NCBI GenBank assembly: GCA_947302355.1
Contig: CAMYUU010000002.1
Location: 40,834-104,833 of the forward strand
DNA: 64,000 nt
Direction of reading: 5' to 3'
Source of the DNA: an uncultured Candidatus Saccharibacteria bacterium
Lineage (GTDB): Bacteria > Patescibacteriota > Saccharimonadia > Saccharimonadales > Saccharimonadaceae
The notes under the pieces were generated by a model. That model worked only from the letters and a program-made list of their open reading frames with translations, was not told where the DNA came from and made no database searches. Made by a program: the position numbers and the translations under genes. This document shows, piece by piece, positions 6,393 through 57,755 of this stretch (positions within the stretch are counted from its first letter, which is position 1; each line of letters begins with the position of its first letter).

Positions 6393-7730
6393 ATGAAAAA
6401 AGTTTATAAATCGGTGCTTAGCGTGTCTGCCGCAGCAGTTGTGCTTGCAGCTACGCTTACGCCTGTGCTGGTGAATGCTTGGGGCGATTCTAGCAATGGC
6501 CGCAAGAGCTACACTTTAGCGCAAATTAACAATGGTGATCTTGGTGACACCATTACGTTTAACTCGATTTCTAACGGTAAAATCGGGGATGAAAAGAATT
6601 TCGTGGGTGCCAAGGTAGCTGGTGCTTCTGTAGACACCTGGAATGCTAATACTATTGACGTAAAAGACGGTGAAACTTATACGATTCGTCTTTTCGTTCA
6701 TAACAACAGCCCAAAGGGCATGGAAGCGATTGCAAAGGGTGTAAAAGCCACTTTCTCGATTCCTACTACAGTTGCTAAATCTCAAACGATTATTGGCTAT
6801 ATCGATTCTTCGAACGCTACCCCTAATCGTTATTGGGATGAAGTAACTTTGAATGCTAGTGAAAACATTTACCTCGAATACGTTAGCGGTTCTGCTAAAT
6901 TTACTAATAACAAGGGCACTTTTTCACTTCCTAACGAAGTAATTACTTCTGGTGCAACCTTAGGTTATACTTCAATGAATGGTGAAATCCCTGGTTGTTA
7001 TGAATATTCTGGTACTGTAACCATCGACGTGAAGGTGCATAGTTCGGTAGCCGCTAAGGTTTCGAAGCAAGTTCGCATTAAGGGTACTAAAACTTGGGGC
7101 GAATCTGTAGAAGCTAAGGTTGGTGATGAAGTAGAATATCAAATTGAATATGTTAACTTGCTATCTGAACAGGTCAAAGATGTAATGATTAGGGACGTGC
7201 TTCCTACTAACGTTGAGTATGTAAATGATTCTACGTATCTTTACAACTCAAATTATCAGAGTGGCGTACTACTAAAGGATAATACTCTTACTACGACTGG
7301 TATCAATATCGGTTCTTACAATGCTAAGGGTAATGCTTACGTGCGCTTTACTGGTAAAGTAGTAGATAAGTCTATGGCTTGTGGCAATAACCAGTTAGTT
7401 AACTGGGCAAGTGCTACTGTGTCTGGTTCTACTATTAAGAATGCAGTCTATAAAGACGATGCATCTGTAATGGTAAACAAGGATGATGAGATTTGTAAAA
7501 AGACTCCTGATCCAGATCCAACTCCGGATCCAGACCCAACGCCTGATCCAGATCCAACTCCGGATCCAGACCCAACGCCTGATCCAGATCCAACTCCGGA
7601 CAATCCAGGCGAAACTCCTACGGTTATCGTGAGCACTGGTCCTGAAACTATTGTATCTGGTGCAGTTGGTGCCGGTTCTGTGGTGACCACTCTTGGTTAC
7701 TACATTGCTAGTCGTAAAAAATTAATGTAA
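6393..7730 (+). CDS. Secreted surface protein, DUF11-like repeat, PDPTPDPDP spacer and C-terminal TM anchor
   Basis: Signal peptide MKKVYKSVLSVSAAAVVLAATLTPVLVNA; KVGDEVEYQIEYVNLLSEQVKDVMIRDVLPTNVEYV; C-term STGPETIVSGAVGAGSVVTTLGYYIASRKKLM. Confidence 0.75.
   Translation: MKKVYKSVLSVSAAAVVLAATLTPVLVNAWGDSSNGRKSYTLAQINNGDLGDTITFNSISNGKIGDEKNFVGAKVAGASVDTWNANTIDVKDGETYTIRLFVHNNSPKGMEAIAKGVKATFSIPTTVAKSQTIIGYIDSSNATPNRYWDEVTLNASENIYLEYVSGSAKFTNNKGTFSLPNEVITSGATLGYTSMNGEIPGCYEYSGTVTIDVKVHSSVAAKVSKQVRIKGTKTWGESVEAKVGDEVEYQIEYVNLLSEQVKDVMIRDVLPTNVEYVNDSTYLYNSNYQSGVLLKDNTLTTTGINIGSYNAKGNAYVRFTGKVVDKSMACGNNQLVNWASATVSGSTIKNAVYKDDASVMVNKDDEICKKTPDPDPTPDPDPTPDPDPTPDPDPTPDPDPTPDNPGETPTVIVSTGPETIVSGAVGAGSVVTTLGYYIASRKKLM
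7500..7604 (+). repeat. Tandem DNA repeat encoding (PDPDPTPDPDPT)n, ~36-bp unit
   Basis: cctgatccagatccaactccggatccagacccaacg repeated in tandem. Confidence 0.85.
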
Positions 7731-10283: not shown

Positions 10284-11054
10284 TTAGATTACATGGTCGA
10301 ATAAACAAGCAATGGTTAGCGGGCCGACGCCGCCGGTGGGGGGCGTGATGGCGGCGAGGTCGGTGCGGGCGCGGACGTCGCTGGAAAGGTCGCCTTTTAG
10401 GACGCCGTTTTCGCTGGCTGTGCCGGCATCTACAACTACGGCACCAGGCTTAATCATTGAGCTATTGATTAAGCCTGCTACGCCGGTAGCCGTAATAATA
10501 ATATCGTATTGGTTGAGCATTGTAAGGTTGGAACCACGGTGGAATAAATTTACATTAAGCCCAGAATCACTAAACATTTTAAATAATGGAGCGCCTACGA
10601 GTTTTCCGCGACCAACGATGGCGATTTTCTGATTTTTTAATTCGATATTATAGCCGGTGAGAAGCCAGTTAATAGCAGTGGCGGTGGCTGAATCGTAATT
10701 GGCGTGTTCGCCTAGGCCATCTACGTCTTTTTCAGGTGCGATTAGATTACAAAGTTCATCGGTGCGTTCTTTTTCCTGAATTGGAAGCTGAATGATAATA
10801 CCAGAAACTGATGGATCGCTACTAGCACGAATGATTTCTTCTTGGAGGGCGTCAGAATTTTGTGCACGATAGTCAATCACTTCTACGCCGATATCTTCGC
10901 CGTATTTAATTTTAAGATTGACATATTTAAGAATGACAGGGTTATCACTATCGCGAAGAATGAGAAGTTTAGGTTTTTTAGCCATTTTGCGGATTTGCTG
11001 GGCTTGACGTTCTTTGATGAAGCCGGCCAGTTCGCGACCATCTAAGATCTTCAT
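10284..11054 (-). CDS. folD: Bifunctional methylenetetrahydrofolate dehydrogenase/cyclohydrolase
   Basis: MKILDGRELAG..., SGIIIQLPI, DVDGLG, VGRGKLVGAPL, TPPTGGVGPLTIACL. Confidence 0.93.
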   Translation of the reverse strand: MKILDGRELAGFIKERQAQQIRKMAKKPKLLILRDSDNPVILKYVNLKIKYGEDIGVEVIDYRAQNSDALQEEIIRASSDPSVSGIIIQLPIQEKERTDELCNLIAPEKDVDGLGEHANYDSATATAINWLLTGYNIELKNQKIAIVGRGKLVGAPLFKMFSDSGLNVNLFHRGSNLTMLNQYDIIITATGVAGLINSSMIKPGAVVVDAGTASENGVLKGDLSSDVRARTDLAAITPPTGGVGPLTIACLFDHVI

Positions 11055-12175
11055 TGGATCTCCATAGGTTCTTGTTCGAGCCAATAACCAAATTTGTCGT
11101 AGACTTTGCCAACTATTTCACTACGAGCGGCTTTTAGATCATTATAACCTTTGGCGGATTCATTGATGAGAACTAGTGGGGCTTTGTCGCTAACGCGCAT
11201 CCCATGTAAGAGCGCGCCTTTAAGACCAGCTTGTTCGATTAGCCAACCGGAATTGATTTTGTTGCCATCTTTGCCGTGATAAACTGGGTAACCTTTGGAT
11301 TCGGCTAGCTTGGCATCGGCATCGTTTAGGTAGATATTTTTAAAGAATGATCCGGAACTAGCTTGGCTTAAAGGGTCTGGCAATTTGCTGTCACGGATAT
11401 CGCTTACGATTTGACGGATGCTCTGAGGACTGTAATCGGTAATATTGTTGGCTGATATGTATTGCTCGATAGAATTATAAAATGGGCGAGACATTTCGCC
11501 AGATCTAAGATGGAGGGTGAGAGAGATAACGAAATAGCGATTTTTGTCGGTAGTATTTAGAATGCTTTTGCGATAGGAAAAATGAAGATCGGATTTTGAG
11601 AGGGTTTTATAAGTATGGTCAGTGGTGTCGTAAACTTCGATTTCGACTAATGTATCTGCGATTTCTTGGCCGTAGGCTCCGATGTTTTGGACTGGAGCTG
11701 CGCCAGCTAGGCCAGGTATTTTGCTCAAAGCTTCAATCCCAGTGAGGTTTCTTTTGCAGGCGTAGTCGACGACATCGTCCCAGTATTCGCCACCCATCAC
11801 TTTAATATAAATCGTGGAACGACTAGGCACCTCTTTTTCGGACACACTTGAGGCCGTTCGGCCAAGCTTATGGTCCTCAAAAGAGGTACCTGAGTCGCTC
11901 TGTGACTCATATTTAGATTTAAGGATGTCTGTCGGTGTCTGGGTAATCTCGATGCCTTTCATGCGGTTAATGATGATGACGCCGTTAAATCCTTCATCGT
12001 GACCGATGGTGTTGGCGCCGTAGCCAAGTACGAAAGTAGGCAAATGGGCTTGTTCGGCAAAGCTATAAGCATCAGCAACTTCGTCGTGGTTTTCAACTTC
12101 AATTACGTAGCGTGCTGGACCGCCAAGTCGCATGGTGGTGAGACTGGAAATTAAGATATTTTCATTAATCCTCAT
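11051..12175 (-). CDS. murB: UDP-N-acetylenolpyruvoylglucosamine reductase with a palindromic-element insertion
   Basis: TTMRLGGPARYVIEV, LGYGANTI, IPGLAGAAPVQNIGAYGQEI, SGSFFKN; additional segment after MKGIEITQ. Confidence 0.93.
   Translation of the reverse strand: MRINENILISSLTTMRLGGPARYVIEVENHDEVADAYSFAEQAHLPTFVLGYGANTIGHDEGFNGVIIINRMKGIEITQTPTDILKSKYESQSDSGTSFEDHKLGRTASSVSEKEVPSRSTIYIKVMGGEYWDDVVDYACKRNLTGIEALSKIPGLAGAAPVQNIGAYGQEIADTLVEIEVYDTTDHTYKTLSKSDLHFSYRKSILNTTDKNRYFVISLTLHLRSGEMSRPFYNSIEQYISANNITDYSPQSIRQIVSDIRDSKLPDPLSQASSGSFFKNIYLNDADAKLAESKGYPVYHGKDGNKINSGWLIEQAGLKGALLHGMRVSDKAPLVLINESAKGYNDLKAARSEIVGKVYDKFGYWLEQEPMEIQ
11820..11897 (+). repeat. Palindromic element copy D, in-frame inside murB
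   Basis: arms GACTAGGCACCTCTTTT / AAAAGAGGTACCTGAGTC around core ggacacacttgaggccgttcggccaagcttatggtcc. Confidence 0.85.
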
Positions 12176-12256
12176 GAGTTGATTATAGCATGAGAAAAGA
12201 GTTTTTAAAATGAAAGGAGAGGGGGTTGAAAGTGGTTTCTATGCTATAATTATATT

Positions 12257-14629: not shown

Positions 14630-14651
14630 GTAGACAATTATACTCTAAAAT

Positions 14652-14756
14652 ATGTAATAAGAAAATATTTTAAACGTGCCCTTCGGACACGCTCCAAGGC
14701 CGCTCTGGCCAGTCTTTATGTCCCGCAGAGCAGATTAAAATATATTCTTATTACAT
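14652..14756 (+). repeat. Palindromic element copy C
   Basis: arms ATGTAATAAGAAAATATTTTAA / TTAAAATATATTCTTATTACAT around acgtgcccttcggacacgctccaaggccgctctggccagtctttatgtccc. Confidence 0.9.
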
Positions 14757-15179
14757 AGATAGATTTGTTTCTATCTCGCGGGTGCCATCGTCATTATAAG
14801 AAATTGATATCTTGAAGTGATTTTCAGGAAGAAGATTAGCGACGGATTCGCCCCACTCGATTACGATGATATTTTTTGGGTTTTTAAGATTTTCTTCTAA
14901 ATCTTCGATCATGAGACCTGGTTCAGGGAGTCGGTAAAAGTCGTAGTGTGTGAAAGTTCCGCCATTTGGTAAAGCATATGATTTAGCAATGGTGAAACTG
15001 GGGCTAGTGATGGGTTTTTCAATTTGCAAGCCGTTCGCTAAACCACGCGTGAAAGTGGTTTTGCCGACGCCGACATCACCAATCAATTCGATTACCGTAG
15101 CGGAATCTTTGGATAATTGGCATTTTTTTGCAAATTCTTTGCCGAAGTCTAGCATTTCTTGTTCGGAATTTATTTTCAT
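14751..15179 (-). CDS. tsaE: tRNA threonylcarbamoyladenosine biosynthesis ATPase TsaE
   Basis: GDVGVGKTTFTRGLANGL, SPSFTI, HYDFYRL, VIEWGE. Confidence 0.93.
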   Translation of the reverse strand: MKINSEQEMLDFGKEFAKKCQLSKDSATVIELIGDVGVGKTTFTRGLANGLQIEKPITSPSFTIAKSYALPNGGTFTHYDFYRLPEPGLMIEDLEENLKNPKNIIVIEWGESVANLLPENHFKISISYNDDGTREIETNLSM

Positions 15180-15197
15180 TGTATAATAAATTATATC

Positions 15198-16415
15198 ATG
15201 AAAGTATATATATCAGGTATATCTGGGACTGGCATGGGGCCGCTAGCGCTTATGGCGAAGCAAGCCGGCTACGATGTGTGTGGCTCAGATCTTAGTAAGG
15301 GTGCAATTTATGATGAGCTTATCAAGGCTGGAATAGAAGTTAAAATAGGTAAGCAAGATGGAGAATTCTTAAAACAAAAATTAGAAAAGGGACTAGATTG
15401 GTTTGTATATACGTCGGCTTTGCCACTAGATCATGCGGAATTGGTTTTGGCGAGTGAGTCTGGAATTAAATGCACTAAGCGTGATGATTTTACTGCGCAT
15501 TTAGTAGAACAGTTGGGCTTAAAAATGGTGGCGGTAGCTGGTACGCATGGTAAGACAACGACTACATCCATGATTATTTACGTGGCGCGAGAGGCTAAGT
15601 TGCCAGCATCTTATATCGTGGGGACTACTTTAGGCTTTGCGCCGAGCGGTGCTTACCACAAAGATGATGTCTATTTTATATATGAAGCCGATGAATATGA
15701 CCGTAATTTTCTAAAGTATCATCCATGGTTGTCTGTGATTCCGGCGGTCTCATATGATCATCCTGATATTTATCCTACGAGACAAGAATACTTGGAGGCA
15801 TTTGAACAATTTAAATTGCAAAGCCAAAAAGTTATAGAAGAGGGGGTTTATGAAAAAGACATAAAGTTGGCAGGCGAGAAGCGACGCAAAGATGCGAGTT
15901 TAGCGGCGGCGGCGATTATAGAGATGGCACCGAGGATTTCGCGTGATGAGGTTATAGGGTTGCTAAATAAGTTTCCGGGTGTGGGTAGAAGGTTTGAGAA
16001 GATAGCTGATGGTGTATACACCGATTACGCACACCATCCAGAAGAAATTGTGGCTACAATTGATGTGGCTAAAGATGAAGCTAGGATTAATCATAAGAAA
16101 GGCATAGTGGTGGTTTATCAACCGCATCAGAATACTCGTCAACATAAAGTATTTGATGGATATAAGAATGCTTTTGTTGGTGTAGATAAGGTTTTTTGGC
16201 TGCCGACTTATTTGACGAGGGAAGACCCGAACCTGGACATCTTGGGACCAAGTGATTTTATTGCAACTTTATCCAATTCGGAAGTGGCCGAAGTAGCGGA
16301 AGCTAACGATGATTTGTCTGAAAAATTGCATAAGTATCTAGAAGATGGTTATTTGGTATTGTTGATGTCGGCTGGGCCGGCTGATTTGTGGATTCGGGAA
16401 AATTTTGCGGATTAG
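15198..16415 (+). CDS. murC: UDP-N-acetylmuramate ligase (MurC/Mpl family)
   Basis: ISGTGMGPLA, AVAGTHGKTTTTSM, YEADEYDRNFL, DYAHHPEEI. Confidence 0.85.
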   Translation: MKVYISGISGTGMGPLALMAKQAGYDVCGSDLSKGAIYDELIKAGIEVKIGKQDGEFLKQKLEKGLDWFVYTSALPLDHAELVLASESGIKCTKRDDFTAHLVEQLGLKMVAVAGTHGKTTTTSMIIYVAREAKLPASYIVGTTLGFAPSGAYHKDDVYFIYEADEYDRNFLKYHPWLSVIPAVSYDHPDIYPTRQEYLEAFEQFKLQSQKVIEEGVYEKDIKLAGEKRRKDASLAAAAIIEMAPRISRDEVIGLLNKFPGVGRRFEKIADGVYTDYAHHPEEIVATIDVAKDEARINHKKGIVVVYQPHQNTRQHKVFDGYKNAFVGVDKVFWLPTYLTREDPNLDILGPSDFIATLSNSEVAEVAEANDDLSEKLHKYLEDGYLVLLMSAGPADLWIRENFAD

Positions 16416-16493: not shown

Positions 16494-19400
16494 ATGGTGA
16501 ATTTAAAAGTATTTAGATTATTGCGCAAAAAAACTTTGTTACGATTATCTGTCTTTAGTTTGGCGATTGTGATGTTTTGTTGCTTGATTGGGAATATGTT
16601 TTTACAGCAAGGGCAAAATGTTTTTGCTGATGATGTTCCTAAATGGGCTAGAATTTGGTATAGCGAAGACTCTGATGACAAGGCATGGTTTTATAATAGC
16701 TATGGGAACTGGGACTACACCCATCTTTATTATGTTTGCTTTAGCCAAAATAGAAACGATACGAGCTGTACTTCTAATTATACGCTAGCTTTTTGTTCTC
16801 AGCCAAATTCATTAATTCCGGCCAATATCGAGTATAGTCCTGATACTTGGTACAGCACAGAGACATATAGTCATAATAAGGTGAAATTGTTGTTGTATAT
16901 CTATTACTATCGTGGTAGTGTAACTGCGGCGGGCCAGGCAAAGAAGGAGATATTTGATGATGGGGGTTGGGATGTCAGCAACTGGAAGAAGTTGTATGGC
17001 TATGTACATGCGGCGCTCGGATATCTATACGATGGTGGGGCAGGTGGCTTAGAGGACGGATATATGGATAATGCGTCTTGGCTTGACGATTTTAGGAGAA
17101 TTTCTAATATGCTCGGAAATTATATTAATAACAATGCTACGGTTTGGCAGCAAGCGAAAACTTTTACTTTGTATAGGACGAAAGGAGGGGATGATTATCA
17201 GGATATTATGTGGATTGAGCCGGGGGATGTGACTTTGACTGGCGTAGCAGTGGATACTGATGGAAATAGGATTTCTGGGCTTAGTAATGTTACTTCTACT
17301 GTAGAGTTTAATAGCTCAGCGTCGATTACTGCGGGCTCCAAGGCTGGTTGGACATTTAAGGGATGGCGGACGAGTGCTGAGAGTGGTACACCTTCTGGTA
17401 GTTCGAGTTATACCGTGAGTCATTTAACTGCCAATACTACTGTTTATGCGGTGTATGAATATAAGGCTTTTCAAGCAAAGGCTGAAGTTTCTGATGCTTC
17501 GACCGGATATGTAGTTGAAAATAGTACATCTAAAACTATGACTTGCACTGATACTGGAGATGGTTGTTCGGTCAGTTTTTCCTTTTATCTAAAAAGGGTA
17601 GCTGGTTCGGATGGCGATGGTACTAAATATAGTACGGATAGAGTAGGTACATCTGGTTCTTGGGCTGATAAAGATACTGATAAGTCAGTGACCCCATCTA
17701 GTAGTGGTGATAAAGTAGTGACATATAATGAAAAGATAAAAGCCGGTCAGAGGATATGCTATAGAATGGTTTATTATCCACACGGAAGTTACGGTGCAGA
17801 TACGACGAAGACGGTTTCGGCTTGTGCTTATGCGGTAGGGACTTTTGAGTCGAGCATAAAGATTGAGGCGAAAAAGAATAATGATCCATATCGGATAACT
17901 GACATTTATGCAAAACCTACTGATAAGATTTATTTGAAAGGAACGTATACACCGACGGCACAATATGGATCCGATTTAAAGCCGGCTATTGTGAGTGTGG
18001 GGAATAGTAGTAACAAGGAAAGCTCGAAGGTGGTTAAAGCTAGGTTTAATACATTGATGGGCACTAATCCGGGGTGGAAAAATGCTTTTTCCGTAACTTT
18101 CAATAGGAGTGGATTTAGTACGCGTAATATTACTGGAACTGATGGCAGTGTAGCTGCGTATGCATCTGGTGATGATGTTTATTCTACAATAGGATATAGT
18201 GATCCGGGTAGCACTTTTACGGCCAAGGCAAAAACCAATGTTAATAATAACACAAAAACCACTCCTAAAAAAACTGAAATTACTTACAATAGTACAAATG
18301 GATTTGTCGTGACAATTAATAATGGATCGATTGAAGCTGCGCTTCAGGTGATGGTGCCATATAACTTTACGAATTCTACGGAAGTGACGTTTGATCAAGA
18401 TTTGCCTTTGTATGCTGGGGAGGATATGTCTATTTCTTATGATATTACGACAGGGGTAAGAGACAATCCGACGGTCGGTGGTAGTTACGCTACGATTGCG
18501 AAAGACGCAAAATGGAAAATACAGATGAGTGTGAATAATGGTCCTTGGCAAGATTTTGGATTGGTAGAAAATCAAATACTGAATGAAAATGATGCCGAGC
18601 TAGACGGTTCTACTAGACATGCTAGTTCTACGGTTGAGATACCCGATGTCAAGGCTGGTACTATGGTATGTTTCCGTTCGGCTGTATACCCAGCTTCAAG
18701 TGGTGGAGATACTAATATTGACAAAGGTGGCGATAAGGAATGGGCTTACTCTGATTCGAAGTGTTACACCGTAGCCAAAAGACCATCTCTTCAGGTCTGG
18801 GGTGGTAACATTTACTCCAATGGCGCAATCACAACTAGCGTAGCAGTAAAGAAAAGGTTGGCTGGCGAAAGTGACGGTACACATGTCTTTGGCTCATGGG
18901 GTGAGTTAGGTATCATTGCGAACGGACAAGTAAAGGGCCTAGCTAGCGGAGCTGGCTATGCTTATAATACTGGGGCCAATAATACTGGATTTTGCTTCGT
19001 GAGTACATTGTCATTTGCTAACGATAAATGTAATAGTGAAACAACTGGCTCACTAGGAGTTTCATTTGGAGTACTAGATGATGAAAAGAAATTGATAATA
19101 GAAAAGCTAACTAACGCTGAAGACGTTACAAAATATAGTAGCACTGACGAACTTGAAGAAAGAATAGGTGGAGATTCCGGAATAATACTGGTTGAAAATG
19201 ATGAAACAGTTAACATAACGAAGCCTATAATATACGACGATACTTATACTAGTTTTGAGTCAATGCCTAAAGTTGTAATATACGCTAAGAACGTTAATAT
19301 TAATTGCAATGTAACCCAGATAGATGCCTTAATAATCGCAGAAGATGCAGTAAACACTTGTAGCAATATTTCGGATGTAAATGATCAAGGAAGATCTGTG

Positions 19401-19607
19401 CAATTGAAAGTTAATGGTGCCATTGTAGCTGATAAACTAATCGCTGGACGTACTTATGGTGCGGGTACTGGCACAAATTCTGGTATCCCAGCTGAGATTA
19501 TTAACTTTGATCCTTCACTTTATTTGTGGGGCGGAAGTTCGGCGGATGCCAATACTAGTTCTTCTTATGAGAATGTATATTCTCGTGAGCTATCGCCTAG
19601 ATATTGA
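16494..19607 (+). CDS. Large secreted surface protein with InlB B-repeat-like segment; paralogue of the 20180 CDS
   Basis: Signal sequence; GWTFKGWRTSAESGTPSGSSSYTVSHLTANTTVYAVYEY; C-term RELSPRY. Confidence 0.75.
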   Translation: MVNLKVFRLLRKKTLLRLSVFSLAIVMFCCLIGNMFLQQGQNVFADDVPKWARIWYSEDSDDKAWFYNSYGNWDYTHLYYVCFSQNRNDTSCTSNYTLAFCSQPNSLIPANIEYSPDTWYSTETYSHNKVKLLLYIYYYRGSVTAAGQAKKEIFDDGGWDVSNWKKLYGYVHAALGYLYDGGAGGLEDGYMDNASWLDDFRRISNMLGNYINNNATVWQQAKTFTLYRTKGGDDYQDIMWIEPGDVTLTGVAVDTDGNRISGLSNVTSTVEFNSSASITAGSKAGWTFKGWRTSAESGTPSGSSSYTVSHLTANTTVYAVYEYKAFQAKAEVSDASTGYVVENSTSKTMTCTDTGDGCSVSFSFYLKRVAGSDGDGTKYSTDRVGTSGSWADKDTDKSVTPSSSGDKVVTYNEKIKAGQRICYRMVYYPHGSYGADTTKTVSACAYAVGTFESSIKIEAKKNNDPYRITDIYAKPTDKIYLKGTYTPTAQYGSDLKPAIVSVGNSSNKESSKVVKARFNTLMGTNPGWKNAFSVTFNRSGFSTRNITGTDGSVAAYASGDDVYSTIGYSDPGSTFTAKAKTNVNNNTKTTPKKTEITYNSTNGFVVTINNGSIEAALQVMVPYNFTNSTEVTFDQDLPLYAGEDMSISYDITTGVRDNPTVGGSYATIAKDAKWKIQMSVNNGPWQDFGLVENQILNENDAELDGSTRHASSTVEIPDVKAGTMVCFRSAVYPASSGGDTNIDKGGDKEWAYSDSKCYTVAKRPSLQVWGGNIYSNGAITTSVAVKKRLAGESDGTHVFGSWGELGIIANGQVKGLASGAGYAYNTGANNTGFCFVSTLSFANDKCNSETTGSLGVSFGVLDDEKKLIIEKLTNAEDVTKYSSTDELEERIGGDSGIILVENDETVNITKPIIYDDTYTSFESMPKVVIYAKNVNINCNVTQIDALIIAEDAVNTCSNISDVNDQGRSVQLKVNGAIVADKLIAGRTYGAGTGTNSGIPAEIINFDPSLYLWGGSSADANTSSSYENVYSRELSPRY
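18642..19532 (+). repeat. Direct repeat copy 1 (~891 bp), near-identical to 21944-22834
   Basis: Line-by-line reading at constant offset 3302; one difference noticed (tatacccagc / tatatccagc). Confidence 0.95.
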
Positions 19608-19670
19608 TTTATCCAATTTAATTCTGAGAAAAAGTTGGAAAAATGATGTTGGTTATGCTAATATAGAAGC

Positions 19671-20183
19671 ATGAGCAAAGGTAAGGTTATATTGGGCAAC
19701 AGATGGCTGGTTGTTTGTTTTTGCGTTCTTGGTGGTTTGGCTATATTTTTAGCAGTAATAAACATTACGATTTGGGTTACAAATTCAAATTATGACGATG
19801 GCGGTGAGTTGTCAGAAGAAGAGACTGTGGTAATTGATGATTCGTTTGATGATGGTGTTATTACTGATGAAGATTTGCAAGCGTATATCGAAGAAACAAG
19901 TCGTAAAATATCGGAAGTTGTAATAGATGATGAAAAGGTAAATATATATAAGGAGAGAGTTGATTATCTTGCTAGTAATAGTGAGTTTGGGGTGTTCGCT
20001 GACCAGATGATTGCGGATTGCATTGCAATAGACGATATTGAGCAAAGTGTGGATTCTGCAGCTCAGGTAGCTAATACGGCAAGTGTTTATGGAAAAGATG
20101 AAATTGCTGAAAAATATCTGCATATTATGAAACAGAGGATGAAAGATCAGGGTATAAACGAGGAGGTACAAGGAATAGGATGA
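19671..20183 (+). CDS. Single-TM acidic protein, hypothetical
   Basis: TM helix WLVVCFCVLGGLAIFLAVINITIWV. Confidence 0.6.
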   Translation: MSKGKVILGNRWLVVCFCVLGGLAIFLAVINITIWVTNSNYDDGGELSEEETVVIDDSFDDGVITDEDLQAYIEETSRKISEVVIDDEKVNIYKERVDYLASNSEFGVFADQMIADCIAIDDIEQSVDSAAQVANTASVYGKDEIAEKYLHIMKQRMKDQGINEEVQGIG

Positions 20184-22909
20184 AAAAGTGGTGTTTGCTA
20201 GTTATATTAATAGTAGGATTCTTAGGGGTCTGCATGTCAGCTCCGAGAGTATCAGCAAGTCAATTTAATAGTAAGGAGGAGTGTTTAAACGCTAGTGGTG
20301 GCAGGCGTGATATCAGTTCGGTAGATTGGGCTTGCGACTGGGTTGGTACTGCTACGGAAACAGTGTGTGCCTTATGGATTGGCTCCGCTACGAATACTGT
20401 TGATCCTATTATTTATACTGATAAAACTTCTGGTAAGGTGACAATAAGATATTATAGAATGTGTTATGATGGGACGCTTGGTACGGCGCATATATGGGTA
20501 GAAAATGATAATGGCGCGATAGATGATAGCATGAATATGAATGGAGGGACTTGGAATAATCCTAAACATATTGATACCCAGCTTGATGTAGGTAAGTTTA
20601 TTAGTGGTATTAGTAGTACCGAAGTGACACACGACGGCAAAGTGTATAATGAATATTCCCGCTGGGTAAAGGTGGGAAGGCAGAGTGAGACTGCATCTAG
20701 CTGTGACGCTTACTCGGGGGCTTGTTCAGAGATGAATGAGCTAGTGCGAGTGCGGATATTAAAAAAATCATTTCAGGCGAAAGCGGATGTATCTGATTCT
20801 TCAACTGGATACGTAGTTAATGGAAGTACATCTAAAACCGTGACTTGCAATAATGCGATGGACGGTTGCTCGGTTGGTTTTTCTTTTTATATAAAAAAGA
20901 TTTCTGGGTCGAGCAGCGATGATACTACTTATGGTACGGAAAAAATAGGTCCGTCTGGTTCTTGGACTGGTGTTGAATCGAATAAATCATCTACCGCTTC
21001 TAGTGGTGGTACGGAAGTGGCGACGTACAGTGCGACAATAAAGGCTGGTCAGAGGATATGCTATAGAATGAACTATCATCCGCACGGAAGTTACGGTGAA
21101 AATACGACGAAGACAGTTACGGCTTGCGCCTATGCGGTGGGGGAGTTTAGCTCGAGTATAGATATAAAAGCAAAAAAACAAAGTAGCAGAAATTATTCTG
21201 ATAATATGATATATGCAAGGCCTGACGATAAAATTGATTTGCAGGGAACGTATGCGCCGAGGGCTCAATATGCAGCTAGTTTGCGCCCGAAAATTGTTGA
21301 AGTAAATGGGACTACGAATAGTAGCTCTGGTACTGTGCAATCTAGGTTCAACAGCATAGTGGGTTCAAATGGATGGAAAAATACTTTTTCGATTAGATTG
21401 GACAGGGGCTCTACTGGGTTACTTGTTCAACATAAAGGTGGCACTATTGGCGCTATTGATACCTATAAATTCATAGCAGGTTATAGCATTAACGCTAAAC
21501 AGGATCCTGGAAATGCATTAAAGGCTAAAGCGCTTACAAACAATGATGATAGCCATAAGACTGCTCCTAAAAAATCTACTATTTCTTATGATAAAACGAC
21601 TGGATTTAAGGTGACGGTTGACCCGAATAGAATTAGTGATGAACTACAAATAGTGGTACCTTATAATTTTATTAATTCTACGAAGGTGACTCTTGATGAT
21701 AATGTGTCTTTATATGCTGGAGAGGCTATGTCCATTTCTTATGATATTGAGACGAGGACGAGGAAGAACAATAAGATTGGAAGTACTTACGCTACGATTG
21801 TGAGGGGGGCGCAGTGGGAATTACAGATGAGCGCAGATGGTGGTAAGACATGGGAGAAATACGGAAAGAAGACTAATCAGGTTTTGAATAAAAATGGGAA
21901 AATTGATGGTGATTCTATTTCGCTTAAGTCTACTGCTATAGTTCCCGATGTCAAGGCTGGTACTATGGTATGTTTCCGTTCGGCTGTATATCCAGCTTCA
22001 AGTGGTGGAGATACTAATATTGACAAAGGTGGCGATAAGGAATGGGCTTACTCTGATTCGAAGTGTTACACCGTAGCCAAAAGACCATCTCTTCAGGTCT
22101 GGGGTGGTAACATTTACTCCAATGGCGCAATCACAACTAGCGTAGCAGTAAAGAAAAGGTTGGCTGGCGAAAGTGACGGTACACATGTCTTTGGCTCATG
22201 GGGTGAGTTAGGTATCATTGCGAACGGACAAGTAAAGGGCCTAGCTAGCGGAGCTGGCTATGCTTATAATACTGGGGCCAATAATACTGGATTTTGCTTC
22301 GTGAGTACATTGTCATTTGCTAACGATAAATGTAATAGTGAAACAACTGGCTCACTAGGAGTTTCATTTGGAGTACTAGATGATGAAAAGAAATTGATAA
22401 TAGAAAAGCTAACTAACGCTGAAGACGTTACAAAATATAGTAGCACTGACGAACTTGAAGAAAGAATAGGTGGAGATTCCGGAATAATACTGGTTGAAAA
22501 TGATGAAACAGTTAACATAACGAAGCCTATAATATACGACGATACTTATACTAGTTTTGAGTCAATGCCTAAAGTTGTAATATACGCTAAGAACGTTAAT
22601 ATTAATTGCAATGTAACCCAGATAGATGCCTTAATAATCGCAGAAGATGCAGTAAACACTTGTAGCAATATTTCGGATGTAAATGATCAAGGAAGATCTG
22701 TGCAATTGAAAGTTAATGGTGCCATTGTAGCTGATAAACTAATCGCTGGACGTACTTATGGTGCGGGTACTGGCACAAATTCTGGTATCCCAGCTGAGAT
22801 TATTAACTTTGATCCTTCACTTTATTTGTGGGGCAATGATGCAATAAAAACTGATCCTAATTCATCTTTGGTAAATGTATACCTACGTGAGCTATCGCCT
22901 AGATATTAG
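20180..22909 (+). CDS. Large secreted surface protein, paralogue of the 16494 CDS
   Basis: Signal sequence MKKWCLLVILIVGFLGVCMSAPRVSA; FQAKADVSDSSTGYVVNGSTSKTVTC parallels the paralogue; C-term RELSPRY. Confidence 0.75.
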   Translation: MKKWCLLVILIVGFLGVCMSAPRVSASQFNSKEECLNASGGRRDISSVDWACDWVGTATETVCALWIGSATNTVDPIIYTDKTSGKVTIRYYRMCYDGTLGTAHIWVENDNGAIDDSMNMNGGTWNNPKHIDTQLDVGKFISGISSTEVTHDGKVYNEYSRWVKVGRQSETASSCDAYSGACSEMNELVRVRILKKSFQAKADVSDSSTGYVVNGSTSKTVTCNNAMDGCSVGFSFYIKKISGSSSDDTTYGTEKIGPSGSWTGVESNKSSTASSGGTEVATYSATIKAGQRICYRMNYHPHGSYGENTTKTVTACAYAVGEFSSSIDIKAKKQSSRNYSDNMIYARPDDKIDLQGTYAPRAQYAASLRPKIVEVNGTTNSSSGTVQSRFNSIVGSNGWKNTFSIRLDRGSTGLLVQHKGGTIGAIDTYKFIAGYSINAKQDPGNALKAKALTNNDDSHKTAPKKSTISYDKTTGFKVTVDPNRISDELQIVVPYNFINSTKVTLDDNVSLYAGEAMSISYDIETRTRKNNKIGSTYATIVRGAQWELQMSADGGKTWEKYGKKTNQVLNKNGKIDGDSISLKSTAIVPDVKAGTMVCFRSAVYPASSGGDTNIDKGGDKEWAYSDSKCYTVAKRPSLQVWGGNIYSNGAITTSVAVKKRLAGESDGTHVFGSWGELGIIANGQVKGLASGAGYAYNTGANNTGFCFVSTLSFANDKCNSETTGSLGVSFGVLDDEKKLIIEKLTNAEDVTKYSSTDELEERIGGDSGIILVENDETVNITKPIIYDDTYTSFESMPKVVIYAKNVNINCNVTQIDALIIAEDAVNTCSNISDVNDQGRSVQLKVNGAIVADKLIAGRTYGAGTGTNSGIPAEIINFDPSLYLWGNDAIKTDPNSSLVNVYLRELSPRY
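21944..22834 (+). repeat. Direct repeat copy 2 (~891 bp)
   Basis: see 18642-19532. Confidence 0.95.
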
Positions 22910-22926
22910 TGTGTTATAATTAACGG

Positions 22927-24276
22927 ATGAAGGCAAAAACACAATTCGTCTGTCAGCAGTGTGGTGCCACCTATGCGAAATGGGTAGGGCAGTGTACGAA
23001 TTGTCAGGCTTGGAATTCTTTGGTTGAGCAGGTATTGGAATCCGAAAGTGCGAAAAAGACGGCTCTAGCTAAGGGACAGGTTTCTGGGAAGAAATTAGAT
23101 TTTGTAAAAATATCTACGGTAGTACCTTCTGATGCCAAGGCTAGACTATTGACAGAGTTTCCGGATTTAAATGCGGTGCTTGGTGGTGGGATTTTGATGG
23201 GCTCGGTATCACTTCTTGCCGGGCAGCCGGGAATTGGAAAATCTACACTCCTTATGCAGATCTGTGCTGAAGTTGCCAAAAACCATAACGTGCTATATAT
23301 TTCGGGTGAGGAATCGGCGGGACAGGTAAAGCTAAGAGCTATTAGGCTTGGCGCGGAGGCGGAGAAACTGAGTTTTGCGGCGTCAACTTCATCTAATGAC
23401 ATTGCTAAAACGATTGAATCTGGTGAGTTTGACCTAGTAATTGTAGATTCGATTCAGACTTTGGCGATGGACGAGATTTCGTCTGCGCCGGGTACCGTAT
23501 CGCAGGTTACGAATTCGGGAAATTTGATTATTCGGGCGGCAAAAAGTACTGATACGGCTGTTATCATTGTGGGGCACGTGACTAAAGATGGAACTCTAGC
23601 TGGACCGAAGGTATTAGAGCATTTAGTGGACGTGGTGCTGAATTTTGAAGGCGATAGATATGGTGGATTTAAGACGGTACGTGCTGTGAAGAACCGTTTT
23701 GGTTCTACGAACGAAGTGGCGATTTTTGCAATGGCCGAAAAGGGGCTAAGTGAAGTACAGAATCCTTCGGCGGCGTTGCTGGCTGAGCGCACAAACACGG
23801 ATGGCTCAATAATTCTCGCTACGCTTGAAGGGAATCGGCCGATTTTGGTGGAGATTCAGGCGCTCGCCACTAAGACTAATTTTGGCTATCCTAAGCGTAC
23901 GGCTAGTGGGTTTGATATTAATCGTTTGAATTTATTAATTGCAGTACTTGAACGACGCACTAAGTTGAAGTTAAACGATAAAGATATATTCATTAATGTG
24001 GTGGGCGGCATGCGGATTAACGATTCGGCGGCGGATTTAGCTATTTGTATGGCGATTGCTTCGGCGGTGGCTGGACGAAAATTAGGCGAGGAATATGTGG
24101 TGTTTGGTGAAATTGGACTTGGTGGCGAGATTCGTTCAGCTTTTCGTGCTGATCAGAGAATTGCCGAGGCAAAGAAGCTTGGTTTCAAGCATGCTATCGG
24201 GCCAGCTACGATCCGTGATAAGTTTGTGATCCCGGCTAAAGATTTGAGGGAAACGCTTATAAAGTATGTAAAATAG
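22927..24276 (+). CDS. radA: DNA repair protein RadA
   Basis: FVCQQCGATYAKWVGQCTNCQAWNSL zinc finger, GQPGIGKST, KNRFGSTNEVAIF. Confidence 0.96.
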   Translation: MKAKTQFVCQQCGATYAKWVGQCTNCQAWNSLVEQVLESESAKKTALAKGQVSGKKLDFVKISTVVPSDAKARLLTEFPDLNAVLGGGILMGSVSLLAGQPGIGKSTLLMQICAEVAKNHNVLYISGEESAGQVKLRAIRLGAEAEKLSFAASTSSNDIAKTIESGEFDLVIVDSIQTLAMDEISSAPGTVSQVTNSGNLIIRAAKSTDTAVIIVGHVTKDGTLAGPKVLEHLVDVVLNFEGDRYGGFKTVRAVKNRFGSTNEVAIFAMAEKGLSEVQNPSAALLAERTNTDGSIILATLEGNRPILVEIQALATKTNFGYPKRTASGFDINRLNLLIAVLERRTKLKLNDKDIFINVVGGMRINDSAADLAICMAIASAVAGRKLGEEYVVFGEIGLGGEIRSAFRADQRIAEAKKLGFKHAIGPATIRDKFVIPAKDLRETLIKYVK

Positions 24277-24384
24277 CACTAAGTGTTAGTTTCGGGACAC
24301 ACGTCGCTTTGCTCCAGCGTCCCAAGGGGCTTTCAAGACCGTTCGGCCAAGCTTATGGCCTCGAAGCTAATACTTAGTTGCTAT
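24273..24384 (+). repeat. Palindromic element copy G (longer core)
   Basis: arms ATAGCACTAAGTGTTAGTTTCG / CGAAGCTAATACTTAGTTGCTAT; core ...caagaccgttcggccaagcttatggcc. Confidence 0.85.
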
Positions 24385-36353: not shown

Positions 36354-36432
36354 GCAACCAAATAATACTATTCAAGACACACTCAAGGCCGTTCGCCCAA
36401 GCTTATGGTCCCGAATAGTATTATTTGGTTGC
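36354..36432 (+). repeat. Palindromic element copy E
   Basis: perfect 20-bp arms GCAACCAAATAATACTATTC / GAATAGTATTATTTGGTTGC around aagacacactcaaggccgttcgcccaagcttatggtccc. Confidence 0.92.
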
Positions 36433-36435
36433 TTG

Positions 36436-36515
36436 CATAACAAAAACTTGAGGCACGTTTCCAAGGTCGCTCGCCCAAGCTTATGGTCCCGAATAGTATT
36501 ATTTGTTTTTGGTAT
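36436..36515 (+). repeat. Palindromic element copy F, in tandem with E
   Basis: core ttgaggcacgtttccaaggtcgctcgcccaagcttatggtcccgaatagtattattt; left arm mostly lost. Confidence 0.85.
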
Positions 36516-44622: not shown

Positions 44623-45459
44623 ATGATTACGAAAGCTATTATACCGGTCGCTGGATGGGGTACTAGGCGACTGCCAATTACTAAAATTATTGAGAAATCA
44701 ATGCTCCCAGTGGGTAATCGTCCGCTTGTGGATTATTCAGTGCAGGAATTAATTGCGGCAGGAGTTAAAGATATCTATATGGTGATATCTAATGTTGAGC
44801 CTTGCCAGGTGCGCGAGTTTTATCGCGATAATTTGGCTCTTAATCAATATTTGATGGATCGTGGAAAAGAAGACAGCTTAAAATTGGCTAAGACTTTGCC
44901 GGATGATGTTAAAATCCATTACACCGTACAAGATCCAGCTGGCAAATATGGGACTGCTGTGCCGATAGCAATGGTGGTGAAGCAGTATAAAATTAATGAG
45001 CCAGTGTTGGTATTTATGGGTGATGATTTTATTTGGAATCCTGGCGGTGAATCTGCAGCGGAGTCTTTAATAAAAATAGTCGGCGAAGGTGAGTCGGCAA
45101 TATTAGGGGTTGAGATTCCGAGGGAAAATGTAGACAAATATGGTGTGCTTTCGGCTGAAGATGGAAAACTAGTTGGAGTAGTAGAGAAACCTGAGCCTGA
45201 GGAAGCGCCATCCAATTTGATTAATGTATCAAAATACATTATGAATCCAGATTTATTGAAGAGAATTGTGAAATATGTGGACGAGAACAGTTTTGGGCCG
45301 GGGGAGCAGGAATATATGGTGACGGACCCGATTGATGAGTATATAAAAGAAGGTGGAATTATGCGAGTGGCGCCGACGGATGGGGAATTCTTGGATGGCG
45401 GCTCGATAGAAGGTTGGTTGCATGCTAATAATGTGGTATGCAATAGTGAAATAGCATAA
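44623..45459 (+). CDS. galU: UTP-glucose-1-phosphate uridylyltransferase
   Basis: AIIPVAGWGTRRLPITKIIEKSMLPVGNRPLVDYSVQE, GDDFIWN, GVVEKP. Confidence 0.92.
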   Translation: MITKAIIPVAGWGTRRLPITKIIEKSMLPVGNRPLVDYSVQELIAAGVKDIYMVISNVEPCQVREFYRDNLALNQYLMDRGKEDSLKLAKTLPDDVKIHYTVQDPAGKYGTAVPIAMVVKQYKINEPVLVFMGDDFIWNPGGESAAESLIKIVGEGESAILGVEIPRENVDKYGVLSAEDGKLVGVVEKPEPEEAPSNLINVSKYIMNPDLLKRIVKYVDENSFGPGEQEYMVTDPIDEYIKEGGIMRVAPTDGEFLDGGSIEGWLHANNVVCNSEIA

Positions 45460-45553
45460 AAGAATTAAAAGCGTGTCCTTCGGACACGCTCCGGGCCGCT
45501 CAGGCCAAGTCTTTATGGTCCTTAGAACAGCTTTAATTCTTTTATGCTATTTC
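45448..45553 (+). repeat. Palindromic element copy B
   Basis: arms GAAATAGCATAAAAGAATTAAAAGC / GCTTTAATTCTTTTATGCTATTTC around gtgtccttcggacacgctccgggccgctcaggccaagtctttatggtcc. Confidence 0.93.
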
Positions 45554-47284
45554 TTTTGCCATGCGTTCGAGTTTGCGGAAGTCGACTTTGTCGGCTTTGG
45601 TGAGAGGAAGTTGATCCATGAAGATAATTTTGCGGGGGATTTCGGAAGGTTTTAAGATGATATGATCGTGTCCGATACGATATGGTTCGGCGGCGGTTTT
45701 AGCGATAGCACGACGCGTAGCGTTATTTTTAGGTATCCCGTCTTTTAGCACTACGATGGCATAGGCAGCTTGTTCGTATTTTTTGTCTGGGCCTTTGACA
45801 ATCTGGCATGTTTTAATTAACTCGGAGCGCATGACGGCGCTGCGTACGTATTCGTAATAAACTTTAGCTGGAATGTTGTTGATAAAGAAGATGGAGCGAC
45901 CTACTAGCGTTACGAATCCTGTGGGACTAACGGAAGCGATATCGCCAGTAATAAGATAGCGTTTGCCTTTGATAGTAGCGAATTTGTTTTCGTTGATTTC
46001 TGGACGATTGTAGTATTCTTTTAGCATGTGCTTGCCATTGACGTAGATGATGCCTGCATGGCCAAAATCGAGCTCTTCGCCGGTTTCTGGGTCAACTATC
46101 ATCACGTTGACGCCGGCTGGAATTTTCCCAACTGTGCCAGGGTGATAAGTTTGTCCGACTGAGGTAGAAATAAGGCCCAGGACTTCGCCTAGACCATAAC
46201 CGTTGCAGATGACAGCGTGAGACTCGTGGTTTCTGAGTAGATCCATGAGTCGATTCGCCACTTCTGGATCTAGTCGCTCTCCTCCCGAGGCGAACATCTT
46301 AATGCTGCTGAGATCAATTTCTGGTGAAAGGTATTTTTCCAATTGTTCTACTAGAGCTGGCACGCCAAAGACGGTGTCAGGTTTTTTGCTGAAATAATAA
46401 TCAAAGTTAGTAGAGTTGATGTCTGGAGTGAGGATAACTTTGCCGCCACCGAGAATGGGGGACATTGTAGAAACCCAAAAACCATACGGGTAATTTAATT
46501 TGACAAATTGCATCCAGGAATGGATTTTTTTATCCCACATTTTAACGCCAGAAGCGGCTTTATTATAGATTGCCCCAGCGACTAGGGCTTTATTAGTGAA
46601 AGTCAGAGGCTTAGGGCCGGAGGTAGAGCCGGAGGTAAAGGTAACAAGGGCGACTTTGTTGGCCGAGAAGGTATTATGAGGGAGATGACCTTTATATTTT
46701 TCGGCAATTTTGGTGATACTGGTCTTACCAATGGAGGCTCCATCCATAGTAGATGTGCCATCAAAATTAATCACATTCTTGACAGTTTCGGCATCTTTCT
46801 TATAGTTTTTAAGTTTGCCCCTAGTCTTTTCGAATGTGACTAAGATCGGCGATTTGAATTCGTCTAAATAATGAATGAGAGTATCGCGCGGAGTGGACTC
46901 GTCGAAAAAAGCTACGGCGGCGCCGATTTGGTTGGCGGCAAGGAAGAATACGATGTTTTCGTAAACGGGACGCCCGGAGGCTACAGTAAGGATGTCGCCA
47001 GATTTTACTCCAAGTTGGAGTAGAACTTTAACCATAGTTTTGCGATCTTTTTTCATTTCACGCCTGGTAAAAGTCTGGTCTTTTTGATCTACAACGATAT
47101 CGTCATTATGACGGAAACAAGAGAGCGAGAAGAGAGCCGATATACTGATTAGCGGAACTAACGGAGCTCTCTTCTGATGCTTTATTTTTAACATAGTATC
47201 CGATTTTATTATATCATACGGGGAAATAGCGTCAATTCTTGGATTATTACTGTGTATTTTTAATTTGTGGTATAATCTAAACAT
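45542..47284 (-). CDS. AMP-dependent synthetase/ligase (acyl-CoA synthetase-like); start may be 47194 (MLKIKHQ...)
   Basis: VALVTFTSGSTSGPKPLTFTN, YGLGEVLGLIST, YLITGDIASVSPTGFVTLVGR. Confidence 0.8.
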   Translation of the reverse strand: MFRLYHKLKIHSNNPRIDAISPYDIIKSDTMLKIKHQKRAPLVPLISISALFSLSCFRHNDDIVVDQKDQTFTRREMKKDRKTMVKVLLQLGVKSGDILTVASGRPVYENIVFFLAANQIGAAVAFFDESTPRDTLIHYLDEFKSPILVTFEKTRGKLKNYKKDAETVKNVINFDGTSTMDGASIGKTSITKIAEKYKGHLPHNTFSANKVALVTFTSGSTSGPKPLTFTNKALVAGAIYNKAASGVKMWDKKIHSWMQFVKLNYPYGFWVSTMSPILGGGKVILTPDINSTNFDYYFSKKPDTVFGVPALVEQLEKYLSPEIDLSSIKMFASGGERLDPEVANRLMDLLRNHESHAVICNGYGLGEVLGLISTSVGQTYHPGTVGKIPAGVNVMIVDPETGEELDFGHAGIIYVNGKHMLKEYYNRPEINENKFATIKGKRYLITGDIASVSPTGFVTLVGRSIFFINNIPAKVYYEYVRSAVMRSELIKTCQIVKGPDKKYEQAAYAIVVLKDGIPKNNATRRAIAKTAAEPYRIGHDHIILKPSEIPRKIIFMDQLPLTKADKVDFRKLERMAKEIA

Positions 47285-53528: not shown

Positions 53529-54617
53529 TTAGACGTTAAATTTAAATTCGACGACGTCGCCGTCTTGCATAATGTAAGTCTTGCCTTCAGTGCGGAGAAG
53601 GCCGGCTTCGCGGACGGCTTTTTCGGAACCGAGGCGAGCGAGGTCGTCAAATTTACAGACGTTAGCCGCGATAAAACCGCGTTCGAAATCGGTATGAATA
53701 GTACCGGCGGCTTCGGGGGCGGTGGAGCCTTTCTTGATTGTCCAGGCACGACATTCTTTTTTGCCGGCGGTAAGGAAGGATTGAAGACCGAGAGTCTCGT
53801 AGGCGGCTTTAATGAGCTCGCCGAGTGCATCATCTTTGACGCCGTAAGATTCGAGGAATTCTTTTCTTTCTTCACGATTCATGCCTGACATTTCTTCTTC
53901 CAATTTTGCATTAACAAAAATGCAGTTTACTAGGCGAGGGTCCTGTCCAAACGCCTCTTTCTCGGGCCGCTCCGGGGCGCTTGCCCAAGTCTTAGGCCCT
54001 TCGAAAGAGGCATTTTGGCCACCCTCGCCTACGATATTGCGAAGCTTGTTTTGTAAACCTTTATCGGTCAAGCCTTGTTCGTCTACATTAAACATATAGA
54101 TGACGGGTTTGTCGGTGAGATAGGGGACAAATTCGTCGGCGGGGTCTTTTTTGCGTTTGGCTTCAATTTTAGCTTTAGTTTCTTCGTCGGCAAGTTGGAG
54201 TTCAAGATTGATGATATCAATATCATCTTTGGCTTGAGCTAGGATGTCATCCTCGGGCTTGTTGTCGGCGCGGACGATGTCGTCGTTTTTGAAGGCTCTT
54301 ACTACATGGCAGATGGCCTGGCATTCGCGGATGTGGGCGAGGAATTTGTTGCCGAGACCTTCGCCTTTAGATGCCCCAGCGACGAGGCCGGCGATGTCGA
54401 CAAATTCTACAGTGGCTGGGACGATTTTGTCAGTTTCGTACATTTTGGCGAGGACGTCTAGACGCTCATCGGGGACGGGGACAATGCCGACATTTGGCTC
54501 AATGGTGGCAAAAGGATAGTTGGCGGCGAGTGCGCCAGCGTTGGTAAGTGCGTTAAACAGTGTAGATTTACCGACATTTGGTAAGCCGACGATTCCGATC
54601 TTCAAATTCAAAACCAA
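53529..54617 (-). CDS. ychF: Redox-regulated ATPase/GTPase YchF with a palindromic-element insertion
   Basis: GIVGLPNVGKSTLFNALTNAGALAANYPFATIEPNVGIVPVPDERLDVLA; C-terminal TGS domain; additional SFEGPKTWASAPERPEKEAF segment. Confidence 0.95.
   Translation of the reverse strand: MVLNLKIGIVGLPNVGKSTLFNALTNAGALAANYPFATIEPNVGIVPVPDERLDVLAKMYETDKIVPATVEFVDIAGLVAGASKGEGLGNKFLAHIRECQAICHVVRAFKNDDIVRADNKPEDDILAQAKDDIDIINLELQLADEETKAKIEAKRKKDPADEFVPYLTDKPVIYMFNVDEQGLTDKGLQNKLRNIVGEGGQNASFEGPKTWASAPERPEKEAFGQDPRLVNCIFVNAKLEEEMSGMNREERKEFLESYGVKDDALGELIKAAYETLGLQSFLTAGKKECRAWTIKKGSTAPEAAGTIHTDFERGFIAANVCKFDDLARLGSEKAVREAGLLRTEGKTYIMQDGDVVEFKFNV
53931..54031 (+). repeat. Palindromic element copy H, in-frame inside ychF
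   Basis: arms TAGGCGAGGGTCCTGTCCAAACGCCTCTTTC / GAAAGAGGCATTTTGGCCACCCTCGCCTA around tcgggccgctccggggcgcttgcccaagtcttaggccct. Confidence 0.85.
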
Positions 54618-54694
54618 CCTTTCGTTAAATTCTTATCTGTTATTATACCATATTTTAGTGTATAATTTAAACTAAGATAATAAAAGGATTAAAA

Positions 54695-56860: not shown

Positions 56861-57621
56861 AACTAAAGGTGCGGAGGCTATCGGTAGTAGTTTTTGCACT
56901 GGTGGGTGTGGTAATCTGGCTTTTTACTAATCCAGAAAGCTATGACCAGATATTTATACGAGTAGAAAATACTGGGGCAGAGGCGGGAATAAATTACGAT
57001 GAAGAGAATGATGATGGTAAAGAGATAGTATTAGCTGATGCTTCGGCTACGGATTCGGGACTAATAGCTTCGGAAGTATTGGAGCTATTAGATGTCAAAG
57101 GGCGAGCGCCCAAGACGGGATATAGCAGAGACCAATTCTACACAGAATGGCCGACGATTGACGGTTGCAATTTGCGCCAAAGAATTATAAAGCGAGAATT
57201 TGGCGACAAAGCAGTACTGGATGGGTGTAATGTGATTGCTGGTGAATATGACGAACCATATACTGGAGAGCACAAAGTGTTTTCGAGTCGTGATGAGATT
57301 TCTAAGGGGGTGCAGATTGACCATGTGGTGGCGCTTTCGGATGCTTGGCAGAAGGGGGCGCAATACCTGGATTCCGACACTAGATATAAAATAGCTACCG
57401 ATCCATTAAACCTACTAGCAGTAGATGCGGCGGCGAACGAGAAGAAGTCGGATGGGGATGCGGCTACGTGGTTGCCATCTAATAAGAAATTTAGATGTCA
57501 GTATGTGGCGAGGCAGGTGTCGGTGAAGTATAAGTATGGATTATGGGTGACACAGGCGGAAAAGGAGGCTATTAAGAGGATTCTTACAAATTGTCCCAAT
57601 GAGTCAATTATAGGCAATTAG
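56857..57621 (+). CDS. Membrane-anchored HNH nuclease, DUF1524/GmrSD C-terminal-like
   Basis: VQIDHVVALSDAWQKGAQYL...DPLNLLAVDAAANEKKSDGDAATWLPSNKKFRCQYVARQVSVKYKYGLWV. Confidence 0.8.
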   Translation: MKLKVRRLSVVVFALVGVVIWLFTNPESYDQIFIRVENTGAEAGINYDEENDDGKEIVLADASATDSGLIASEVLELLDVKGRAPKTGYSRDQFYTEWPTIDGCNLRQRIIKREFGDKAVLDGCNVIAGEYDEPYTGEHKVFSSRDEISKGVQIDHVVALSDAWQKGAQYLDSDTRYKIATDPLNLLAVDAAANEKKSDGDAATWLPSNKKFRCQYVARQVSVKYKYGLWVTQAEKEAIKRILTNCPNESIIGN

Positions 57622-57718
57622 GCAATTAAATATTGCAAGCGTGTCCTTTGGACACGCTCCAGGCCGCTCTGGCCAAGTCTTTATGGTCCTAAGAACACAT
57701 TTGCAATATTTAATTGCC
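57621..57718 (+). repeat. Palindromic element copy A
   Basis: arms GGCAATTAAATATTGCAA / TTGCAATATTTAATTGCC around gcgtgtcctttggacacgctccaggccgctctggccaagtctttatggtcctaagaaca. Confidence 0.93.
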
Positions 57719-57755
57719 CATGTGCTATAATCATATAAAAGTAAGTGGAGGAGTT

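Follow-up and report, generated by a model that had tools for sequence, protein, structure and literature searches.

IS608, an insertion sequence of the IS200/IS605 type, inserts with a polarity relative to the replication fork. To our knowledge, known transposons duplicate their targets in direct orientation, and an insertion signature with a mirrored flank would point to a mechanism other than theirs. The Rickettsia palindromic elements are approximately 100-150 bp in length; many are located in frame in conserved metabolic and housekeeping genes, several of their frames are readable, and they occur in bacteria with small genomes (PMC10969869). The families are defined by their own repeat sequence, and a conserved peptide is encoded (PMC10969869). 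In a quasi-palindrome or short-range template switch, the nascent strand reverse-copies nearby sequence, which makes or perfects an inverted repeat (PMC7954356).

The window analysed here is a stretch of 64,000 nt from an uncultured Candidatus Saccharibacteria bacterium. It contains a palindrome, element B, between galU and an AMP-binding gene (Table 1). Element B is probably (about 70%) a copy of a non-autonomous mobile palindrome whose insertion is linked to the replication fork and whose entry copies one flank in inverted form. A literature search found no published description of this element.

Table 1. Positions of element B, its two neighbouring genes and the other copies of the element in the 64-kb window.
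Feature	Position	Strand	Remarks
galU (UTP-glucose-1-phosphate uridylyltransferase-like)	44623..45459	+	PF00483; GAA ATA GCA and TAA within left arm
AMP-binding gene (acyl/aryl-CoA ligase-like)	45542..47284	-	PF00501, PF13193; convergent with galU
Element B, left arm	45448..45469	+	putative inverted copy of right arm; would add EIA and stop to GalU
Element B, conserved mobile core	45478..45525	+	model R1, 48 positions, type 2; cmsearch 68.5 bits, E 1.4e-13
Element B, right arm	45532..45553	+	probably native; 3' end of AMP-binding gene
Further copy, core, inside murB	11836..11880	+	murB on - strand, ORF 11054-12238; MurB_C
Further copy	14651..14757, core 14681-14728	+	right arm includes tsaE stop codon
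Long-core copy, core	24321..24365	+	upstream of gene read as ruvC
Further copy	36354..36432	+	intergenic, adjoins tRNA gene
Partial tandem copy	36447..36493	+	right arm common to it and the preceding copy (36354..36432)
Further copy, core, in frame in ychF	53960..54004	+	ychF on - strand, ORF 53532-54632; YchF-GTPase_C
Further copy	57614..57725, core 57646-57693	+	sits between two genes

The sequence-only reading had stated that the two convergent genes share their 3' ends and that these ends are the arms of element B. Both statements are correct. The arms are complementary at 22/22 positions around a 62-nt centre, and pairing goes on past 22 bp with a one-base offset (AAAAGC vs AAAGC). The gene galU ends in AGT GAA ATA GCA TAA (protein end VVCNSEIA) and the AMP-binding gene ends in GAA ATA GCA TAA (stop at 45542-45544, complement; protein end KEIA). 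The single-strand fold of the region has an energy of -53.8 kcal/mol (z = -8.7), and 0/200 shuffles were equally stable. The same reading expected one C-terminus to be changed where the element is present, and a comparison with relatives identifies that of GalU. None of 29 relatives has EIA at the end of GalU (0/29); the protein terminates in VVCG, VVCNS, VVCNN, VVCGV and similar sequences. The AMP ligases of relatives end in RMAKEIGEEHK or RMAKELAEEAEKA, and also in REMDEEKKK and KELGSVENTNK; the ligase end of genome G018, which was read directly, is KELAEEAEKA. Since the AMP ligase normally has KE[IL][AG] and EIA is absent from GalU of relatives, the galU end is likely to be the inverted copy and the right arm the native one. 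The end of the AMP-binding gene therefore seems to have been copied onto the end of galU, which would replace the GalU stop codon and add EIA. Relatives have a longer AMP ligase, so the stop of the ligase here may belong to the change as well.

Two relatives have other palindromes at this location. Genome G080 (locus L096) has the same convergent pair and belongs to a species without the core. Its GalU ends in NTNK and its AMP ligase in ENTNK. Both ends lie in a perfect repeat of 27 nt, which is part of a longer, imperfect palindrome whose centre resembles a terminator. This pair suggests that inverted copying of gene ends can happen without the core. The galU-AMP ligase intergenic region of G072 (L090) contains a long palindrome that is nested and has another centre (GGCATCTGCGCCGGAATTATCAGTTCCGTACTCGACC); it may represent a further family of elements.

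The window has eight copies of the core. An earlier remark that the right arm of a "copy C" includes the tsaE stop codon holds if the copy at 14651-14757 is meant; tsaE (TsaE, PF02367) is the complement ORF 14754-15212. The gene downstream of the long-core copy is presumably ruvC, a name taken from its N-terminal sequence and not from a family search. Long-core variants, whose core includes an additional hairpin (CGTCGCTACGCTCCAGCGTCCCAAGGGGC), are located at window positions 24275-24345, in L008, and at C3:27681, C9:29494 and C4:37037. At positions 36354-36512, a partial copy stands in tandem behind a complete one and uses the right arm of that copy. The window also has repeats of other kinds. 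Two long homologous stretches in 17469-22228 are 3302 bp apart and reach 97% identity over 300 nt; they resemble paralogous genes in tandem. Two genes contain repeats rich in Pro-Asp/Pro-Lys codons (5650-5769 and 7494-7601) which resemble the linkers of surface proteins.

The element consists of a conserved hairpin core of 37-48 nt and locus-specific arms. The core folds into an imperfect hairpin (GGAC-AC-GCU-CAA-GGGC-loop-GCCC-A-AGC-UUAYG-GUCC) and has a GC content of 63%, vs 43% for the genome. Across 104 distinct copies 93.4% of the cells are paired and 38 are double-changed (0/500 shuffles as high), with covariation far above slid controls, in an alignment that was fitted to the model and thus favours the structure. 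There are 29-30 copies in this 727-kb genome and 0-17 per genome in congeners, 23/36 of which match the core model. A core-model search found the core absent from 24/24 genomes that belong to the order's other families. Among 295 sampled genomes of the class, the carriers are 35 genus members and one other member of the family. A pattern scan covered 84,980 species; among the matches listed, almost all are from Saccharibacteria and Bifidobacterium.

Ten Bifidobacteriaceae genomes have 2-60 copies each, and Saccharibacteria and Bifidobacterium share one 35-nt core without any difference. Actinobacteria are the phylum of the known Saccharibacteria hosts. The identical core marks DNA exchange between Saccharibacteria and this phylum. 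The Bifidobacterium copies are paired in inverted orientation at distances of 80-200 bp; their arms are near-perfect and their outer flanks are conserved (GRCCGC / GCTCCGTT). Examples are L260 3076-3325, L265 28-196, L267 6020-6194, L326 3481-3703 and L312 618-818. Their arms are partly alike from copy to copy, and in Bifidobacterium the element may carry its arms along when it moves.

The complementary arms, approximately 15-36 nt long, are particular to each copy. The 29 copies of this genome have a median arm score of 43; random positions have a mean of 14.7 and a 99.9th percentile of 40. In the Saccharibacteria copies conservation ends just outside of the core, and the arms differ by locus. 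Most of the orthologous sites in G010 and G003 do not have the element. The best inverted repeat at these empty sites scores 0-26, mostly control level (control means 14-17), vs 20-50 at filled sites. Filled sites exceed empty ones by a net length close to that of the core and a single arm (pyrG 70, leuS 74 and ileS 77 nt); these relatives have approximately 75-80% DNA identity, so the junctions are not base-exact. The core might instead have inserted into palindromes that already existed, such as terminators, in which case the arms would be older than the core. Several copies are between convergent genes, and at site C3:63242 the flanks are to some extent complementary far beyond the arms, as this explanation would have it. 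It is contradicted by the low scores at the sites with empty alleles, and the in-frame sites in leuS, pyrG, tsaD and lysS have no palindrome in relatives. It is the least credible of the alternatives considered here.

The native arm can be identified at in-frame copies by excising the core and one arm and scoring which version better fits the relatives. The left arm is the native one in leuS, pyrG, a glycosyltransferase, tgt and lysS, and the right arm in tsaD (by 29-45 points with three relatives), gatA, ychF and murB, with margins of only 2-8 points at several loci and no decision for ileS and a second tsaD copy. Since the native arm is the left one at some loci and the right one at others, either flank can be copied. 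Two species have a copy at one and the same position of an RNA-binding-protein-like gene, and both arms of these copies differ in concert by six double changes, as would be expected if one arm had templated the other. The copy upstream of ruvC and its G010 orthologue have arms altered on both sides by four paired changes. These paired changes in orthologous copies indicate that arms may rewrite each other after insertion, and part of the arm complementarity could date from such re-copying.

The same double changes are also compatible with arms that moved with the element, if selection on a hairpin RNA (a terminator or small RNA) kept their pairing and the differences between loci were compensatory. 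The covarying core pairs, the near-perfect and partly similar arms in Bifidobacterium and the location of several copies at gene ends agree with this. However, arms of different loci are alike only at the background level, except for a few long-core variants. Arms also contain conserved native protein sequence, such as PCFPLLALVV in TsaD, and many copies are within ORFs on either strand. Mismatches in the arms are G.T in 57 and A.C in 61 cases, numbers that do not point to selection favouring pairing on a single transcribed strand. In Rfam, the window had no match at the gathering score and element B alone had only weak, chance-level matches; one copy from Bifidobacterium is similar to hairpin microRNA models, yet below their gathering scores. 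Selection on a hairpin RNA is therefore an unlikely origin of the arms. A known RNA family was rejected on the Rfam result, and a terminator was rejected since in-frame copies occur on both strands.

These comparisons give good support to the view that the arms are local copies of one flank. The sequence-only reading had proposed local inverted duplication around the core. This stands for the arms, with one native and the other its inverted copy at the loci where coding sequence decides, and the empty sites free of palindromes. It does not apply to the core, which is a dispersed mobile repeat common to species and even phyla and not a local product. The fold-back/template switching that was proposed with it is still the mechanism that would fit best.

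About 14 of the 29 copies in this genome span intact ORFs. The genes affected are ileS, leuS, pyrG, tsaD (twice), tgt, lysS, gatA, gatB, ychF, murB and others, which were named by Pfam, except for pyrG, which was named by conserved sequence. In congeners, ileS and other genes have in-frame copies at these same positions, but the arms are different ones; thus some positions are repeatedly hit or tolerant. Essential enzymes of a lineage with minimal genomes gain peptides built from mirrored host sequence. Such peptides would be a source of protein novelty which is datable and can be tested in natural alleles.

The orientation of the copies follows GC skew, which was used as a proxy for fork direction. 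In this genome 28/29 copies read along the G-rich strand. All 14 copies in G001, G003 and G010 follow the skew (14/14), as do 55/63 copies in other rumen genomes (p = 1e-9; 40/43 where the skew exceeds 0.05). At one site shared with G010, the copy there is opposite relative to the gene, and its orientation agrees with the local skew of G010. Transcription was rejected as the determinant of orientation, since copies in coding sequences are co-directional with it in 17 cases and opposite in 18 (n=35), and the skew is followed even by 26/31 copies whose direction is opposite to that of most genes nearby. Insertion therefore seems tied to the direction of the replication fork, as far as GC skew reports it. 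This polarity suggests a single-stranded donor or target, and it makes the single-strand hypothesis directly testable.

A Y1 (HUH) transposase (PF01797) was not found in 22 congeners or 10 Bifidobacteriaceae genomes, while 5/14 controls were positive, and it was rejected as the mover since none of the carriers tested has it. A reverse transcriptase (PF00078) was rejected as well; it is absent from this genome (G000) and from four other carriers (G010, G018, G030 and G003). Genes for PF00078 reverse transcriptases are present in G001, G005, G007, G009, G035, G028, G017 and G022 and are uncorrelated with the element. A phage origin was rejected because viral contigs had 0 matches to the core. 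The transposase result also bears on the possibility that the element is an ordinary MITE or REP, mobilized in trans, whose terminal repeats have merely diverged. The element is short, multicopy, palindromic and patchy and is both intergenic and intragenic. In addition, the inverted pairs in Bifidobacterium look REPIN-like, and fork-biased orientation is familiar from IS200/IS605. The absence of a Y1 transposase from these genomes and the dissimilarity of arms between copies nevertheless make an ordinary MITE or REP very improbable.

The preferred reading, insertion with one flank copied inverted, can be put as a series of steps. The core would arrive at the replication fork as single-stranded DNA, and the hairpin would join one strand end. 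Its 3' end would then prime by fold-back on its own adjacent flank, after which the copying strand would switch back to the original template. On entry at a new site, one flank would thus be copied inverted across the core to give X-core-X'-Y or X-Y'-core-Y; action on one strand or the other would determine whether the left or the right flank is copied. We infer the fold-back step and the machinery from the products. The movers could be host replication and repair enzymes, or another enzyme.

Copies may also pass between species by homologous exchange of short tracts. The leuS copy is in a 248-nt tract (L128 19059-19306, C4:39059-39306) that is identical save for one base to G010 (C13:25424-25671), within sequence that is approximately 76% identical. 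A tract this similar in diverged surroundings suggests that copies spread through homologous short-tract exchange too. Judging from its identity, the tract is a recent transfer of a short element-bearing segment between two species. In its full form, the proposal is that a hairpin core without a transposase enters as single-stranded DNA at the fork, that fold-back copies a flank into an inverted target duplication, and that the element is exchanged between Bifidobacterium and the epibiotic Saccharibacteria, whose hosts Bifidobacterium may be. This wider account is tentative and has clearly less than an even chance of being correct. The element is most likely selfish.

The comparison with known systems places the element near several of them. 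Like the Rickettsia palindromic elements, it inserts in frame in conserved protein-coding genes. It lacks a defining feature of those elements, conserved arms: here the arms are made from each insertion site and only the central core is conserved; orientation also follows replication, and the core is common to another phylum. Imperfect hairpin repeats in tens of copies are a likeness to REP, BIME and REPIN sequences with RAYT (TnpA-REP). The inverted pairs of REPINs are seen for the Bifidobacterium copies and are not the rule in Saccharibacteria. Unlike that system, the carriers tested have no Y1 transposase, the arms are long and site-specific, and half of the copies are intragenic. A hairpin core and fork-relative polarity are shared with single-strand transposition of the IS200/IS605 type, from which the element differs in the lack of a detected Y1 transposase and in the inverted copying of a flank. 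It is unlike a MITE in that terminal inverted repeats are not common to the copies, the arms being locus-specific, and unlike a retron or other element dependent on reverse transcriptase in that the five carriers examined have no PF00078. Quasi-palindrome template switching has the same reverse copying of nearby sequence; it needs no mobile core, whereas here the copying is recurrent around one conserved exogenous core. The element is filed as a new variant among mobile palindromic repeats, one with locus-made arms.
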